Below, in pieces: positions 22,502-64,000 of a stretch of DNA of 64,000 bases. The notes under the pieces were generated by a model. That model worked only from the letters and a program-made list of their open reading frames with translations, was not told the origin of the DNA and did no database searches. The stretch spans positions 21,011-85,010 of the forward strand of contig MGDH01000015.1 in NCBI GenBank assembly GCA_001790855.1, read 5' to 3'. A program made the translations under genes and the position numbers. The stretch comes from Candidatus Schekmanbacteria bacterium RIFCSPLOWO2_02_FULL_38_14. GTDB taxonomy: Bacteria > Schekmanbacteria > GWA2-38-11. Each line of letters starts with the position of its first letter. Position 1 is the stretch's first letter.

Positions 22502-22552
22502 TAAAAGCTCCAGCATTTAATAGGATATAGAAAAACTTATCCACTGTCATTG

Positions 22553-35157: not shown

Positions 35158-35664
35158 ATGCCAAAAACAAAAAAACGGAAAAAGGCGAAGCCGGTAAAAG
35201 CAGCAAAACATGGCAAAGCAGCAAAACATGGCAAAGCAGCAAAACATGGCAAAGCAGCAAAAGCAGCAAAACTGGTAAAGCCCGAAAAAGAAAAAAAAGA
35301 AGTAGCGGGCAAATACGAGCCTATAAGAAAAATCTTAGAGGAACAGAGGGCTACCCTCATCAGAGAAGCAATGGCAGCAATAAATAGCACTATGAATCCT
35401 GAGCTGGAGACATACTCTGACCCCGGTGACCAGGCATCAGCAGAATCTGACCGCAACTTCTTCATAAGGCTTAAAGAAAGAGAACAGAAGCTGATAAAAA
35501 AGATGGAGCTTGCGTTGGAACAGATAAAGAACGGAACCTTTGGCATATGCGAGGTCTGCGGCAAAGAAATAGGTATTAAAAGACTCAAGGCAAGGCCTGT
35601 TGCCACTCTATGTATTGAGTGCAAGACAGATGCTGAAAAGGAAGAAAAAGCAAGAAACCTTTAG
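35158..35664 (+). CDS. DksA/TraR C4 zinc-finger protein with a Lys/Ala-rich repeated N-terminus
   Basis: 168 residues from the ATG at 35158. The C-terminal half is DksA-like: a coiled-coil region (KYEPIRKILEEQRATLIREA and EREQKLIKKMELALEQIKNG), the acidic tip-like DPGDQASAESD, and a four-Cys zinc finger CEVC...CIEC. DksA-type proteins enter the RNA polymerase secondary channel and work with ppGpp, whose synthase gene lies just to the left. The first ~45 residues are strongly basic with three tandem KHGKAA units (18-base DNA repeats), a low-complexity histone-H1-like tail. A TTG at 35098 would add 20 hydrophobic residues and is disfavoured. Confidence 0.88.
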   Translation: MPKTKKRKKAKPVKAAKHGKAAKHGKAAKHGKAAKAAKLVKPEKEKKEVAGKYEPIRKILEEQRATLIREAMAAINSTMNPELETYSDPGDQASAESDRNFFIRLKEREQKLIKKMELALEQIKNGTFGICEVCGKEIGIKRLKARPVATLCIECKTDAEKEEKARNL

Positions 35665-49025: not shown

Positions 49026-50240
49026 TTATAAATGAACCACGTCTTCTGGATGATACAGCGAAAGAAACAAAAGCATATACTCTCTAAGGTGGCGCGTAAG
49101 CAAAAAGTTATTTTTTATATGCTCCTTGCCATTTTCGCCTAATTTCTTAGAATATTCTGAGCTATTGAGTAATTGTTTAATGGCAAAAGCAGCTCCCTCA
49201 ATTGAATGACAAAGTAATCCAGAATATTTATGTTTTATCTGTAAAGGAATCCCTCCGACATTGGAGGCAACCACTGGCTTTGCCTTCCAAAGGGCTTCGG
49301 CAACAGTTAAGCCAAAGCCTTCTTTCAGAGATTTCTGTATAATAATAGTTGATGCTCTCTGTAACGCGTTTACTTCAATATCGCTATGAAACAAGAGTAA
49401 AACGTGTATATCTTTGTCTTGCTCAGCCTTTTCCCGCACTTCTTCAAGGACTTTTATCCCTTCGGGGTCATCTTCTGCAGTGCCGCCGGCCAATACAAGC
49501 TGGCAATCAATATATTTTTTAACCTGTCTATAAGCCTCTATGACTCCAACAGGATCTTTTAAGTGATCAAAGCGAGAGATTTGCGTAAGTATAGGTTTAT
49601 TCTTGAGGATCCCATACTTTTTCAATACTGAGTCTATAATTTCAGGAGATAATTCCTTATTTTTATCACTCAATGGATCAATAGAAGGAGAAATCAAAAA
49701 TTGTCTTATTGGTAGGACCGCTTGTGAAAAAGTTGGAACGGAAAATACTGCTGAATCGTAATTAACAATAAAATCCATTAAAAATTTCCATACCTTTTGA
49801 TTAGGATTTGATACATCTACATGACAACGCCAGATCCACTTGTTATTGGATTTCTTCCTTATCAAGGCTATCGGCTGTGGGTCATGCACAAAAACAATTT
49901 CACCATAAGTGTTTACTTCCTCTATATTTTTTTGGCTCGTTTCCATAAAGATATCAAAATCGCGCTGCGTTATTTCTTCAACCCTGCCATGCAGGGCGTT
50001 GTGGAATTTTTTGGTTACCTCAAAAAACTGCTCTCCGCCTTTTATCACATCCCATCTTGAATCAATGCCGAGTTCTTTTAATAGCGGAACCATGCGGTTT
50101 AATATTTCTGCGACACCCCCACCAACAGATGTAGAATTGATGTGTTGAATAATCTTACCCTCCAACCTCTGCGCAAGAAGTCTTAAATCATCTACAACTG
50201 ATTGGCCAACGATAGGGATATATTCATCTAATTTTGCCAT
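49026..50240 (-). CDS. treT: Trehalose glycosyltransferring synthase (TreT-like)
   Basis: GT4-family enzyme, 404 aa, joining a nucleotide-diphosphate-glucose and glucose to trehalose in one reversible step. Family landmarks: HINSTSVGGGVAEILNRMVP, HDPQPIALI, ISRFDHLKDPVGVI, and KEGFGLTVAEALWKAKPVVA with VGGIP (donor and catalytic Glu region). It is the last gene of a four-gene leftward unit, starting 1 base after the DUF5752 gene, so it is certainly co-transcribed. The operon therefore encodes two trehalose routes, TreT and OtsA-OtsB. Confidence 0.93.
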   Translation of the reverse strand: MAKLDEYIPIVGQSVVDDLRLLAQRLEGKIIQHINSTSVGGGVAEILNRMVPLLKELGIDSRWDVIKGGEQFFEVTKKFHNALHGRVEEITQRDFDIFMETSQKNIEEVNTYGEIVFVHDPQPIALIRKKSNNKWIWRCHVDVSNPNQKVWKFLMDFIVNYDSAVFSVPTFSQAVLPIRQFLISPSIDPLSDKNKELSPEIIDSVLKKYGILKNKPILTQISRFDHLKDPVGVIEAYRQVKKYIDCQLVLAGGTAEDDPEGIKVLEEVREKAEQDKDIHVLLLFHSDIEVNALQRASTIIIQKSLKEGFGLTVAEALWKAKPVVASNVGGIPLQIKHKYSGLLCHSIEGAAFAIKQLLNSSEYSKKLGENGKEHIKNNFLLTRHLREYMLLFLSLYHPEDVVHL

Positions 50241-50241
50241 A

Positions 50242-50913
50242 TCACTTAGCTATTCTATTTTCTATCATATTTATGAGGGCACTCCTTAATCCTTCAAGGG
50301 TATGGGTGTAAGGATCAAGCCTTGCGATTTCGTAAGCTAATTCTTTATCGCCAATAGAGTTTTCTATCCAGTTGGAAAAATCACTGTTGTTTCTTTCCAG
50401 TCTTAAGCGCGCTTCAAAAACATGAAAATATATGGAATCGATAGTAACTTTTCTTAAGATATCTACAAATTCTTTCAAATTATAAACAACATAACTTGTA
50501 GGCAATATAAAGCTTACCGATTTGACAAAATGAAACTCTTCACCCTCCCAGACGAATTTTAACTTAGCCAAAGCATTGTTCTTTAGATAGTCCTCAATGG
50601 TTTCTGCAATTTTGTCTCGAAGACTACGAATAGTTGAATATTGGACAGTATCGATACTGGCTAGTTTCTCGCCAAGCTCATCTTCGCCAAGTAACTCAGT
50701 AACCCAGTAGGCAAAATCATTAGGTGGTTCTGGAGAAAGGTATTGATGCTCCTGTAAAAATCTATGCGTATGATGATAAATAGAAGAGTCTGAAACCTCT
50801 TTGATAAGGTCTAATAATTGACCTAAGGTAGTAGCTCTTAATCCGGTCAGTTCTGACAAATGTAGCCTTGTGTAAAATCTAAACGGTTCTTTGGCTCTTA
50901 TTAAATCTTTCAT
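50242..50913 (-). CDS. DUF5752-family protein in the trehalose operon
   Basis: 223 residues of the DUF5752 type, function unknown. Two similar halves are visible: LKEVSDSSIYHHTHRFLQEH-like (LLDLIKEVSDSSIYHHTHRF) in the first and LRKVTIDSIYFHVFEARLRL in the second, each followed by FxxWxxxxxGDxELAxxxxxxD. This is an internal duplication. The conserved His/Tyr/Trp/Asp pattern could form a binding pocket. It sits between otsB (5-base gap) and treT (1-base gap), tight coupling that argues for a role with trehalose enzymes, perhaps regulatory. Confidence 0.82.
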   Translation of the reverse strand: MKDLIRAKEPFRFYTRLHLSELTGLRATTLGQLLDLIKEVSDSSIYHHTHRFLQEHQYLSPEPPNDFAYWVTELLGEDELGEKLASIDTVQYSTIRSLRDKIAETIEDYLKNNALAKLKFVWEGEEFHFVKSVSFILPTSYVVYNLKEFVDILRKVTIDSIYFHVFEARLRLERNNSDFSNWIENSIGDKELAYEIARLDPYTHTLEGLRSALINMIENRIAK

Positions 50914-50918
50914 TTTCT

Positions 50919-51716
50919 TTAATTTTTACATAAACATAAAATCTTTTTTAAAAACTCAAAGACTTCCTGAGTATCTTTTAGATAATATTTTGCCTGCGAA
51001 TTTTTTGGCTTTCCTATGTATATAGTCAATCCTTTATTTTTTAACATATCAAAGGCATCTTCGTCGGTTACATCATCACCAAGATAAATGGGCATAATCG
51101 GATGGTCGCCTAAAATAAATGTCTGTCTTGCAAGAAGCCACGCTACTGCCATGCCTTTGTTCCATTGCACCGGCGGTTTTATATCTATAACCTTCTTCCC
51201 ATAACTAACCTTTATCTTATTTCTTGCTAAGAATGGTTGAATAACCTCTTCAATTATTTTCTTGGCTAATAAATAGCTGCTTCTGGTAGCCAAGCGATAA
51301 TGAACACTTAGTGTCACATCTTTATCCTCTACAAATATGCCTTTTATTTTTGACAACTTATCAGTTAATTCCTCTTTTAAATTTCTTATAATTGAAAACA
51401 ACTGAGATGAAATCTGGCTTTCAAACTTTATCTTAGACCCTCCTATTTCTAATCCGTGATTTCCTACATAAATAATCCTTTTTAAACCAACCATTCTTTT
51501 TATATCTTTTAATGCCCTTCCACTGATAATTCCTACGCTACATCCTTGCTTAGTTGACAAATCCCTTAGAAGATTTCGCATATCCCAGGAAATAGCTGCC
51601 TTATCCGGCTGTTCTACAATAGGAGTCAGGGTGCCATCATAATCTATAAAAAGGTAGATGTGCCTATTAATGAAATCTTCCCTCAGCTCATCCCACTTGC
51701 TAAATAAATATTTCAT
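50919..51716 (-). CDS. otsB: Trehalose-6-phosphate phosphatase
   Basis: HAD phosphatase releasing trehalose from trehalose-6-phosphate, 265 aa. Motif I is FIDYDGTLTPIVEQPDKA with both Asp; motif II is GIISGRALKDI; the cap includes VGNHGLEI; motif III/IV reads KGMAVAWLL and PIYLGDDVTDEDAFDML. All are standard for OtsB. It begins 15 bases after otsA ends and is followed 5 bases on by the DUF5752 gene. Confidence 0.95.
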   Translation of the reverse strand: MKYLFSKWDELREDFINRHIYLFIDYDGTLTPIVEQPDKAAISWDMRNLLRDLSTKQGCSVGIISGRALKDIKRMVGLKRIIYVGNHGLEIGGSKIKFESQISSQLFSIIRNLKEELTDKLSKIKGIFVEDKDVTLSVHYRLATRSSYLLAKKIIEEVIQPFLARNKIKVSYGKKVIDIKPPVQWNKGMAVAWLLARQTFILGDHPIMPIYLGDDVTDEDAFDMLKNKGLTIYIGKPKNSQAKYYLKDTQEVFEFLKKILCLCKN

Positions 51717-51731
51717 ATATTCAATAAACTT

Positions 51732-54326
51732 TTAGTCTTTTTTCAATGCGGTTAATTCGGTAATAATATTTCCTGCCCAGCGGTAAACATTATTTTCCTT
51801 TACAATATTCCGCATATTCTCCATCCGTTTTAATTTTTCATTAACTGGCATTTCTATGGCAAGCTTTATAGCATCAGCAAATTCTTCTATAGAATATGGA
51901 TTTATCTGTATGGCATCAATCAATTCTCTGGAAGCTCCAGTAAAACAGCTTAATATCAATGCTCCTTTTAAATCAATTTTTGACGCAACATATTCCTTAG
52001 CCACTAAGTTCATTCCATCGTGCAAGGAGCTTACAATGCAGAAATCAGCAAGGGCATAAAACGGCTTAATTTCTTCAGGGGAAAAATGCCTTTTCAGATA
52101 TATTATTGGCTTCCAGTTTCCATCAGCGTACTTCCAGTTCTTCTTTTCTATCAGTTCATCTATTTCTCCAATTAAATCATGATAGCGTTTTATATGGGTA
52201 CGACTTGGGGCGCCCAATTGTATGTAAACAAATTTATTTTTATATTGAGGGTTCTTTTCCAAAAACCTGTCTATGGCTAATATGCGCTCTATTATACCTT
52301 TGGTATAATCAATTCTTTCAACACCTATGCCAATTATTTTATCTTCTACTTCAAATTCTTTAAGAATCTTGTTTGCCTGTTCAGTTTTCATTTCAGAAGC
52401 ACCATTACTAAAGTAACCGTCTATACTTATAGGGAATGCCCTTATAAATGTCTCTTTGCCGTAGCGTATTACGCTAAATCTTTCTGTGTCTATACGAGAC
52501 TCAAGAAGCCTATTGGCAGTATCCAAAAAATTATTACAATGATATTGAACATGAAAACCTATTAAATCGCAGGCTAACATTCCTTCTAAAATCTCTTCAT
52601 GGTAAGGGCAGATTGAAAAAACTTCCGGGTTTGGCCATGGAATATGCCAGAATAATGCAATTGTCGTATCCGGGCGTCTCTCTTTTACAAACTTTGCAAG
52701 GAGAGTAAAGTGATAATCTTGAATAAATAAAAAGGGATTCTTTGCAGGCAATTCTTCTAAAATACTTTCAGCAAATTTTTGATTTACTCTCTTATACATA
52801 TGCCAATCTGTTTCTCTAAATATTGGTCTGGTATGAGTAATATGACAAAGAGGCCATAATCCTTCATTTGAAAATCCATAATAATAGCCTTCTTCTTCTT
52901 CCTTTGATAGCCAAACTCTTTTGAGAATGTAGCGGTTATCTTCGGGGGGAACTCCCAGCTTATTTTTTGAATTTACAAATTTTCTGTCCGCATTACTACC
53001 TCCATGAGCAACCCAAGTTCCGCCACAGGTTCGCACTATGGGGTCTAAGGCAGTTACCACTCCGCTTGCAGGTCGAAGACACTTGAATACCCCTGTAGCT
53101 TCATCTATAACATGCATATAAGGTTCTCTGTTTGATACGATAACCAAAGCATTTTCGCCTAATTTAGCATGGATGATATCTTTAAGTTTTGCCTCAGTCC
53201 ACAACTCTTCTTTCTGAAGACGGGCTGAGGCTTCTTTAGCGACTGCCTTCCGGGCTACCCTTAAACTCAAAGCCACTTGCTCAACTTCACCGGCAAGTTT
53301 TCCAAGTTCTCCTTTTTCTTTAATGGAATGAGACGAATCTATTTCCCCCTTTTGAAAACGCTGAAACCATTCGGTCAACTGCTGAACTGGTAGAATAAAT
53401 ATCTGTCGCTGGATTAAAACTGTTATTGAAGCTATCAAAACTATCAAAATGATTAGAGGGATACTTATGCGTTTCCATAACTCTGTCAATCGTGTAAACA
53501 CATATGAAGTGTCATATATAACCTCAACCAATCCAAGGATATTGTTGCCCTCATCTATGACAGGGAGAATGTAACTATACACTGAATATTCCTTAAATTT
53601 TTCTAATTCACCCCGCGGGATTTTATTGTTTATTATATCTTTAAGATAGGGCTTTTCTTTCTGGCTCCAGTCTGAAATTCGCTCGGTAATAGCCAAAATC
53701 TGACCATCTTTATCGTAAACAACGCAGCCCTGTAGTCTCTCTCTTTTCTGAAAACTTTCAACCAGACGATTAGCGGTATTTAAATCATTTGAAGTGTCAT
53801 ATATAATCTCTACTAACCCAAGAAGATTGTTTTCATCATCCATAATAGGTAATATATAACTGTATACTGAATACTCTTTAAATCTTTCTAATTCTTCTCG
53901 CGGGATTCTGCTGGCTATTATTTCTTTAAGGTAAGGTTTATCTTTTTCTCTCCAATCAGCAATCCATTCATTAATGGCTAAAATACTCTCATCTTTATCA
54001 TAGATAACACAGCCTTGAAACCTCCCGCGTTTTTGAAAGCTTTTGACTAAACGATTAGCAGATTTTAAATCATTATTGATAAGTATATGCCTAACAGATA
54101 ATTCAATGCGTTCGGCATCGATCTTAGCTTTTTTTTGAAGGTCATCCAGACTTATAAAAATATGTTTTGCTGACAATTCGAGACTTTCTGCCACTGTCTT
54201 AGCTTTTCTTTTTAAATCATCCATCATTCTATCTTCTTCAAAGCGAATCTGAATTATACTGAATATTGTAAAAACAACAGAAACAACAATTAAAATAGGT
54301 AAGATAAACAGTAAGACTCGTTTCAT
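51732..54326 (-). CDS. otsA: Membrane sensor-HAMP-trehalose-6-phosphate synthase fusion
   Basis: 864 residues. A signal-like helix (4-24) and a second helix (~286-307) bracket an extracytoplasmic region. That region holds two near-identical modules, residues 87-178 and 182-274, each SANRLV/TANRLV...GCVxYDKD...PYLKEII...EYSVYSYILP...LLGLVE. A HAMP linker (~308-362) and coiled coil lead into a GT20 domain (~392-862) with IVSNREPY, FWHIPWPNPEVF, GVERIDYTKGI and LHDGMNLVAKEYVA, so the synthase site looks intact. It makes trehalose-6-phosphate from UDP-glucose and glucose-6-phosphate. The layout implies direct control by an extracytoplasmic signal. A second small duplication occupies residues 41-62 and 66-87. 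First gene of the operon; start has AAGGA. Confidence 0.93.
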   Translation of the reverse strand: MKRVLLFILPILIVVSVVFTIFSIIQIRFEEDRMMDDLKRKAKTVAESLELSAKHIFISLDDLQKKAKIDAERIELSVRHILINNDLKSANRLVKSFQKRGRFQGCVIYDKDESILAINEWIADWREKDKPYLKEIIASRIPREELERFKEYSVYSYILPIMDDENNLLGLVEIIYDTSNDLNTANRLVESFQKRERLQGCVVYDKDGQILAITERISDWSQKEKPYLKDIINNKIPRGELEKFKEYSVYSYILPVIDEGNNILGLVEVIYDTSYVFTRLTELWKRISIPLIILIVLIASITVLIQRQIFILPVQQLTEWFQRFQKGEIDSSHSIKEKGELGKLAGEVEQVALSLRVARKAVAKEASARLQKEELWTEAKLKDIIHAKLGENALVIVSNREPYMHVIDEATGVFKCLRPASGVVTALDPIVRTCGGTWVAHGGSNADRKFVNSKNKLGVPPEDNRYILKRVWLSKEEEEGYYYGFSNEGLWPLCHITHTRPIFRETDWHMYKRVNQKFAESILEELPAKNPFLFIQDYHFTLLAKFVKERRPDTTIALFWHIPWPNPEVFSICPYHEEILEGMLACDLIGFHVQYHCNNFLDTANRLLESRIDTERFSVIRYGKETFIRAFPISIDGYFSNGASEMKTEQANKILKEFEVEDKIIGIGVERIDYTKGIIERILAIDRFLEKNPQYKNKFVYIQLGAPSRTHIKRYHDLIGEIDELIEKKNWKYADGNWKPIIYLKRHFSPEEIKPFYALADFCIVSSLHDGMNLVAKEYVASKIDLKGALILSCFTGASRELIDAIQINPYSIEEFADAIKLAIEMPVNEKLKRMENMRNIVKENNVYRWAGNIITELTALKKD
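53505..54068 (-). repeat. Tandem duplication encoding the two extracytoplasmic modules of OtsA
   Basis: Units at 53793-54068 and 53505-53783, each about 276-279 bases. DNA is alike throughout but many third positions differ, so the duplication is not recent. Confidence 0.85.
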
Positions 54327-54356: not shown

Positions 54357-54375
54357 CCTGTCTACAGCAGACAGG
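54357..54375. repeat. CCTGTCT/AGACAGG palindrome, copy 6
   Basis: CCTGTCTACAGCAGACAGG, upstream of the trehalose operon start (31 bases from ATG), so it lies in the leader or promoter of otsA. Confidence 0.8.
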
Positions 54376-62289: not shown

Positions 62290-64000
62290 TTAGCAATTAA
62301 TATCTGGTTTCGGGTTACTTTTAGTAGCCTCCATCTCAGAGCTAACCGCTACAACATCAGCCCCTTTGAAAATTCTGACCCATTTGACAGATGAATCAAA
62401 AATTATAACTACAACCAGTGCCATCATTATAGCTGTAATGGCTGTATTCAAATATCCCTGGAAAATTACACTCTGCACATCTGAGTTAAGCAGTAAAGCT
62501 ATGGAATTAGCTTTATCAGGATTTGTTGAGGGAAGAAAATTATCAAATATAGATTGCCAACCTGCTGTCAGAGTAAGAATAGTCATAAAAACCATTGGCA
62601 AAAAGGTTGTCCATGCATATTTAGCTTTGCCCATCCTGATTATGAAAGTGGTCCCGATACAGAGCGCCAGTGTTGCAAGCAACTGGTTTGCAATGCCAAA
62701 CATGGGCCAGATTGAGGATATACTTCCTGTGTAAATAAAATAAGACCAGCAGAACACAACTACAGCACTTGCCAGCAGATTTCCCGGAAGCCAGTCTGCC
62801 TTCCCAAAGGGCTTATAAAAATTTCCTCCAAATTCCTGGAGGAGAAACCGTGCTACTCTTGTCCCTGTATCAACTGTCGTTAATATGAACAATGCTTCAA
62901 ACATTATTGCAAAGTGATACCAGTATGACATTAACCCCTTCATTCCGGGAATAGATGAAAATATCTGAGCCATGCCAACTGCAAGAGACACAGCACCCCC
63001 TGGCCTTCCAGACAACTGCTCTCCGACAACTTTTTCAAGCTCTGGCAGATGGATAATATTAAGCCCCATCTGTTTAAATTTTTCAGGGATTACATTTATT
63101 GCAAAATAATCAGATGGCTCAAGAGCACATGCTGCAATAATAGCTATAAGAGCAACAAAGGATTCGGCAAGCATAGCTCCAAAACCAATCAACTTGATAT
63201 CAGACTCTTTATCAATCATTTTGGGCGTAGTGCCTGAGCTTATCAGGGAATGGAATCCTGAGATTGCCCCACATGCAATTGTTATGAAAACGAACGGAAA
63301 TACTTTCCCTGGAATAATAGGACCGCCGCCATGGATAAATCCTGTTATAGCTGGCATTTTAAGCTCCGGCATTACACAGGTTACCCCAATAGCTAAAAAA
63401 GCAATTGTCCCAATCTTCATAAATGTACATAGATAATCTCTCGGGGCAAGAAGAACCCAGACAGGCAGAATTGAGCCAGTTAAACCATAGATTGCTATGA
63501 AGATTGTTATCTCTTTCGGATCAAAGGTAAAATATGGCGCGAGAAAGGAGCCTGGAACCCATTTGCCGAAAATAACAGTTACCGCAAACAAAACTATTCC
63601 TATAACAGTTGCCTGTTTAATATGGCCCGGTTTTAACTTATGCATGTAAAATCCCATAAAAAGCGCAATTGGTGTTGTCATAGCTATGATAAATGTACTC
63701 CATGGGCTTTCTTTGAGAGCATTAACAACAGCCAGTCCAAGCCCTGCAAGGGCTATGATAATTATAAATAGTATGGCTAATGCAGTGGCAAACCCTGTAA
63801 CAGGCCCAACTTCTTTTTTTGCAATCTCAGCAAGAGATTTCCCTCCACATCTCACAGAAGCAAAAAGAATTATAAAATCATGGACTGCACCTCCAATAAC
63901 ACCACCAATCAAAATCCACACAGTTCCTGGCAGATATCCAAACTGGGCAGCAAGTACTGGACCAATCAGAGGACCTGCTCCTGCAATGGATGCAAAGTGA
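62290..64000 (-). CDS. cstA: Carbon starvation protein CstA-family transporter (5' end outside window)
   Basis: Polytopic permease importing peptides or pyruvate. The frame is open to the window edge ([20 protein letters not shown]), so the first ~70 residues are missing. Family landmarks are [40 protein letters not shown] (short: [12 protein letters not shown]), [15 protein letters not shown], and [20 protein letters not shown] with LQEFGG. At least 12 helices lie in the visible ~568 residues. It is probably complete at the C-terminus (ends [10 protein letters not shown]). Confidence 0.95.

Follow-up and report, generated by a model that had tools for sequence, protein, structure and literature searches.

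HAMP and Cache modules drive kinases, cyclases, phosphatases and chemoreceptors, and the Cache fold serves mostly for the binding of small molecules. Trehalose is a compatible solute. According to the accessible parts of a 2016 survey, the known ligands of Cache domains are mostly organic acids and amino acids, with no sugars reported as of that year, and its table of partner domains contains no glycosyltransferase (PMC4822843). The same parts present the duplication of a single Cache domain as the proposed origin of the dCache_2 and dCache_3 families (PMC4822843). GT20 enzymes are described as monomers, dimers or tetramers, and a helix and a loop of the N-terminal domain of OtsA shift by up to ~12 A upon closure of the enzyme around its substrates, as stated in the available part of a study on M. 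thermoresistibile OtsA (PMC6879718).

The DNA analysed here, called the window, is a stretch of 64,000 nucleotides from Candidatus Schekmanbacteria bacterium RIFCSPLOWO2_02_FULL_38_14 (contig MGDH01000015.1). It carries, at 51732..54326 on the (-) strand, a gene for a protein of 864 amino acids with the order TM1, stalk, two Cache modules, TM2, HAMP, linker and GT20 domain. No description of a Cache/HAMP-GT20 fusion was found in the accessible parts of the open-licence literature, and a report on trehalose synthesis in Omnitrophota leaves HAMP unmentioned in its available parts (PMC8542988). We consider it probable that the protein is a one-component transmembrane receptor-enzyme, in which signalling through Cache and HAMP would open or close the GT20 active site and OtsB, encoded by the next gene, would finish trehalose.

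The fusion was aligned with 59 relatives, giving 60 sequences in total, and its 392 N-terminal residues were modelled with AlphaFold2 (mean pLDDT 88). Relatives were searched in a contig scan using one genome per species and a three-sequence profile. All features of the fusion gene and of its downstream neighbours given below lie on the (-) strand.

The bounds of the open reading frame are exact, with an ATG start and an AGGA motif just upstream. Two membrane helices had been proposed in an earlier annotation of this DNA made without database searches (the sequence-only reading), and they agree with two strongly hydrophobic segments, TM1 (54261..54317, residues 4-22, hydropathy 3.13 over 19 residues) and TM2 (53412..53468, residues 287-305, hydropathy 3.03). 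TM1 begins a continuous predicted helix at residues 2-84, and after two PAS-like modules TM2 lies inside a predicted helix at 274-325, which is followed by a connector and a helix at 339-371. We infer a membrane topology with the sensor outside the cell. The chain is kept end to end in 59 of the 59 aligned relatives, and the spacing between TM1 and TM2 is near-constant.

The model of the region between the membrane helices has the features of the Cache fold, namely a long N-terminal helix and a PAS-like sheet between two transmembrane helices, and judged by this predicted structure the sensor is a Cache domain. It was matched to the sensors of WalK (4ywz; Z 15.5, rmsd 2.7 over 133 residues), CitA (2j80; Z 13.8) and DcuS (Z 12.7), the match to WalK and CitA covering residues 54-190, and the family sequence profile independently found the WalK sensor (E 4e-5). 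The two modules, M (53790..54074, residues 85-179) and M' (53505..53789, residues 180-274, adjoining TM2 in sequence), are predicted to be stacked along helix 2-84 in a double-Cache arrangement; over both of them the model matched Mlp24 (6iop; Z 14.2, residues 32-279, rmsd 4.1) and KinD (Z ~14), and double-Cache chemoreceptors together with KinD align over residues 26-280 with Z ~12-14 and rmsd 4-6. Pfam scores of the window protein were below the gathering thresholds (sCache_3_2 21.4 against 28.4, CHASE8 22.7 against 27, dCache_1 21.1 against 45), and 28 of the 60 aligned sequences gave a match to sCache_3_2 at E up to 0.01. Since these three named Pfam Cache families score below gathering, the sensor is classed as Cache by its fold and assigned to no single one of them.

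The tandem arrangement of two modules had been noticed in the sequence-only reading, but not that they are copies of each other, nor that a stalk segment is duplicated as well. Residues 59-178 have no counterpart in the 59 aligned relatives. The stalk segment h (54150..54224, residues 35-59) corresponds to residues 35-59 of the single-module relatives, and h' (54075..54149, residues 60-84) is its tandem copy: the two are identical at 14 of 25 positions, the next best 25-mer of the protein reaching 7 of 25, and none of 200,000 shuffles did as well. The modules, of 95 amino acids each, are 73% identical in protein and ~74% in DNA. The additional 120 residues are best read, from the sequence, as two separate tandem copies, one of a 25-residue stalk and one of a 95-residue module; a single duplication of 120 residues would give the order h-M-h'-M' and is rejected in view of the observed order h-h'-M-M'. 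Together, the two events would have given a sensor with one Cache module a second module and a lengthened stalk, as in double-Cache receptors, the resulting fold being predicted to lie on one helix of 83 residues. No second member with a double module was seen among the relatives in the alignment and in the scans of sampled genomes, the others having a single Cache domain. The differences between M and M', at ~26% of bases, fall mostly on third codon positions, and identities of 84, 89 and 51% at the three codon positions argue that both modules have long coexisted under purifying selection and thus that the sensor is used. The residues conserved in the family are retained in M', but M has changed at the positions corresponding to E196, G208, T214 and G239; of the two, M' is therefore more likely to have kept the original function.

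The segment directly after TM2 (53253..53402, residues 309-358) is very probably a HAMP domain, as the sequence-only reading had it. For the window protein by itself, Pfam placed HAMP on residues 312-356 with 14.5 bits, against a cut-off of 25, and it matched 8 of the 60 members at E up to 0.01; the family profile matched 2y0t (AF1503) and 2l7i over this segment (E 0.007-0.008), P313, W320 and E347 are invariant, and the model shows the helix, connector and helix of a HAMP domain, the first helix (274-325) including TM2 and the second being 339-371. A coiled coil, also proposed earlier, was not borne out: after the HAMP exit helix 339-371 the model has a short linker helix from residue 378, and these short helices rule out a long coiled coil. 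The linker (53151..53252, residues 359-392; A366, W376, T377 and L381 invariant) enters the first strand of GT20 and joins its N-terminal domain, part of which is mobile in OtsA, just before the active-site residue R400. The invariance of W376, T377 and L381 is to be expected if the geometry of the junction matters. W376 and L381 are also found in L003, an apparently soluble, sensor-free relative of the same GT20 branch (53% identical), so that this part of the linker seems to belong to the enzyme branch and to have been reused in the fusion.

The existence of L003 means that the enzyme can do without a sensor, and it lends some weight to the view that the N-terminal half is a mere membrane anchor or dimeriser, which places the synthase at the membrane and carries no signal. 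We regard this as rather unlikely. A complete Cache module with HAMP exceeds what an anchor needs, the sensor positions F192, R195, G200, Y204, P255, G265 and D272 are common to the Omnitrophota-type and the more distant sensor sets, and in the window copy the sensor has been doubled with both modules held under selection.

If the N-terminal half is a receptor, its cue may be considered. The sequence-only reading had proposed that production of trehalose-6-phosphate is switched directly, with no transcription step, by an external signal such as osmolarity or a periplasmic ligand. The analysis supports a genuine Cache-HAMP receptor in frame with an apparently complete GT20 domain, present in several phyla, but it lends no support to osmolarity. 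Osmolarity or membrane tension as the cue, a variant of the receptor-enzyme explanation, would suit the role of trehalose as a compatible solute. According to the accessible parts of the survey, the yeast osmosensor Sln1 likewise contains a Cache domain (PMC4822843), so that such a domain may serve in osmosensing. We nevertheless find this variant unlikely, since the sensor comes closest in fold to WalK, CitA, DcuS and amino-acid chemoreceptors and no feature of the sequence suggests osmosensing. The predominance of amino and organic acids among the ligands covered in those parts (PMC4822843) also makes a nutrient or metabolite cue likelier than osmolarity itself, and a small-molecule ligand is thus the likelier cue.

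The GT20 domain (51747..53150, residues 393-860) is apparently intact, in agreement with the first description of the gene. Pfam PF00982 matched residues 394-859 with E 2e-117 and 393.2 bits (gathering 32.5), nearly over its full length (profile positions 3-472 of 473). The best sequence and fold matches are to OtsA/Tps1, with E 4.1e-79 for the sequence match to PDB 5jij and target-normalised TM scores of 0.84-0.90 for the OtsA/Tps1 structures in the rows shown. The donor and acceptor contacts given for M. thermoresistibile OtsA in the available part of its description, Arg18, Gly39, Tyr90, Asp144, His168, Arg286, Lys291, Arg324, Asp385 and Glu393 (PMC6879718), map in the 5jij alignment to R400, G422, Y482, D537, H561, R671, K676, R709, D770 and E778, all of them invariant in the 60 aligned sequences. 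The position of OtsA Gln146 is His539 in the fusion, and Arg365, which is not conserved outside mycobacteria, was left out of the count. In NCBIfam the fusion scores 416 bits with the OtsA equivalog TIGR02400, under the cut-off of 564.85, and it is likewise under the cut-off of the OtsAB equivalog. With these scores, trehalose-6-phosphate synthesis is deduced from the residues and from the adjacent otsB, and a different acceptor sugar is possible. Trehalose-6-phosphate, the product named in the sequence-only reading, is thus favoured by the contact residues and the neighbouring genes, though the cut-off for OtsA is missed; the enzyme appears to work like OtsA by residues and context, while not being filed as a TIGR02400 equivalog.

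The sub-threshold OtsA and OtsAB scores, together with a match of 308 bits to the glucosylglycerol-phosphate synthase family TIGR02398 (cut-off 569), might instead indicate a sensor-enzyme with another GT20 product, such as a glucosylglycerol-phosphate-like compound. This is very unlikely in our view: the residues aligned with glucose-6-phosphate contacts are kept (R400, Y482, D537, R709), OtsA/Tps1 proteins are the closest in both sequence and fold, and the next gene, 15 nt downstream, encodes the trehalose-6-phosphate phosphatase OtsB (50919..51716; TIGR00685 191.4 bits, above the cut-off of 68), with a TreT-like trehalose synthase of the GT4 type further on (49026..50240; Pfam TreT_GT1 5.5e-55). 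Between these two lies a gene for a DUF5752 protein (50242..50913; Pfam 7e-69).

The order fusion, OtsB, DUF5752, TreT was found in 36 of the 51 testable loci, and DUF5752 lies downstream of the fusion in 39 of the 51. DUF5752, of which no mention was found in the accessible parts of the open-licence literature, is a candidate partner or regulator of the trehalose enzymes. Two trehalose routes, OtsA-like/OtsB and TreT, are placed in one operon (49026-51716), an arrangement conserved among Omnitrophota; the TreT reaction may be reversed to recover glucose. Promoter-like sites were at chance level only; those resembling terminators exceeded it by about one standard deviation. Short palindromes of the form CCTGCCTGCCGGTAGGCAGG are repeated throughout the window, with one copy at 54357-54375 just upstream of the fusion start and others near 22550, 40360, 44673, 55640, 59055, 59115 and 62120, among other places. 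The window also contains a tandem repeat at 35197-35260 with at least three copies of the 18-base unit AAAGCAGCAAAACATGGC, and an open reading frame for the carbon starvation protein CstA (62290-63681) whose profile match starts only at position 166 of 560; the N-terminal portion of this frame may be split off, frameshifted or initiated at another site.

The contig scan confirmed at least 559 proteins related to the enzyme, soluble and fused ones counted together. Nearly all of the best 80 of these match over both sensor and enzyme, the remainder being cut by contig ends, and more than 100 fusion relatives were found in uncultured bacteria, so that the related fusions which had only been suspected in the sequence-only reading do exist, at ~80 other loci in many separate assemblies. 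Among the matches listed, Omnitrophota dominate with 65-78% identity, and Nitrospirota, Elusimicrobiota, Acidobacteriota, Bacteroidota and others follow with 45-51%. At strict thresholds the sensor part was detected in 77 of 384 sampled genomes of the phylum of the Omnitrophota locus L027 and in 16 of 295 of that of the Nitrospirota locus L086. An assembly or sequencing artefact, either two joined genes (the case that the sequence-only reading had raised against itself) or an expanded repeat giving the double sensor, has next to no probability: the double module was indeed seen in the window genome only, but the number of separate loci excludes joined genes and no assembly error makes two modules differ mostly at third codon positions.

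In a quick tree of 94 GT20 domains all fused proteins form one branch, adjoining L003, with an SH-aLRT value of 84, which is not strong. The single branch suggests that the fusion probably arose once and then spread. The window protein is nested in the Omnitrophota part of this tree. Compared with Omnitrophota, identities reach 78% for the fusion and 83% for TreT, whereas those of the neighbouring housekeeping gene tgt are only 51-56% and those of the 16S rRNA 74-77% (longer matches). The fusion was absent from the three other genomes sampled of the window genome's phylum, one of which is only 70% complete. Taken together, the nesting, the identities and this absence indicate that the four genes were acquired together, probably by horizontal transfer from Omnitrophota. 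No other gene of the window travels consistently with the cassette in the compared Omnitrophota loci, the scan of viral contigs gave no match that would point to a viral or mobile origin, and PADLOC detected no defence system. Fusions with 64-71% identity were also seen in genomes labelled Victivallis, Goldbacteria, Planctomycetes or Phycisphaerae, Deltaproteobacteria and Syntrophales; these loci (L067, L070, L074, L077, L078, L081, L084) are nested in the Omnitrophota branch and reflect either repeated horizontal transfer or misbinned contigs.

The conservation of Cache, HAMP and GT20 as one unit across several phyla makes direct control without transcription the natural reading. In the receptor-enzyme that we propose, the external Cache sensor, doubled in this protein, would bind a small ligand or sense an envelope cue, and a change at the Cache dimer would move TM2 and rearrange HAMP. 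The HAMP exit helix and the invariant W376-T377-L381 linker would relay this motion to the N-terminal Rossmann half, in which R400 lies, and opening or closing of GT20, whichever direction the cue favours, would set the rate at which glucose-6-phosphate and NDP-glucose give trehalose-6-phosphate. Given the large movement of that half when OtsA closes, as reported in the part of the study cited above (PMC6879718), locking or freeing it would be a simple rate switch. OtsB would then convert trehalose-6-phosphate into trehalose, TreT and DUF5752 acting in the same metabolism.

We lean, by a little, towards a broader proposal: that these proteins form a widespread one-component class in which a biosynthetic glycosyltransferase is gated by Cache-HAMP in a direct and reversible way and an external chemical cue thereby sets the level of trehalose, or of trehalose-6-phosphate as an internal signal, without transcription, and that in this lineage a single Cache sensor became double through two small duplications lengthening the stalk and the module. 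The fusion puts the same HAMP/Cache relay on a metabolic enzyme whose product is easy to measure. Should the relay work, it would offer a ready system for studying the effects of HAMP motion on an enzyme whose cycle of opening and closing is well described; it would also constitute a short route from an outside signal to a compatible solute. A step from single to double Cache is otherwise inferred from old families; with its modules still so similar, this copy provides a comparatively young case, and it would show in readable form how double-Cache sensors can arise.

Compared with known systems, the fusion resembles the Cache receptors, such as WalK, CitA, DcuS and the Cache cyclases and chemoreceptors, in its TM1-Cache-TM2 layout and in its fold, and HAMP follows Cache as in many receptors of this type. 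The output of those receptors is a kinase, cyclase, phosphatase or chemotaxis domain, whereas here it is a biosynthetic glycosyltransferase. With the dCache receptors Mlp24, TlpA, Tlp3 and KinD it shares a pair of PAS-like modules stacked along a single long N-terminal helix, but unlike in these receptors its modules are 73% identical and the duplication is seen in its lineage only. The solved OtsA/Tps1 enzymes (PDB 5jij, 1uqu, 6jbi) are alike in fold, in donor and acceptor contact residues and in the adjoining otsB, yet they have no transmembrane Cache-HAMP module, and the GT20 branch of the fusion, under the OtsA equivalog cut-off, stands apart from the other sampled GT20 domains. TreT of the Thermococcales type belongs to a different family and catalyses a different reaction; a TreT-like enzyme shares the operon with the fusion but lies outside it. 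Both halves of the protein thus belong to known families, and their combination appears, from its sequence, to be a HAMP receptor whose output, a metabolic one, is unusual.
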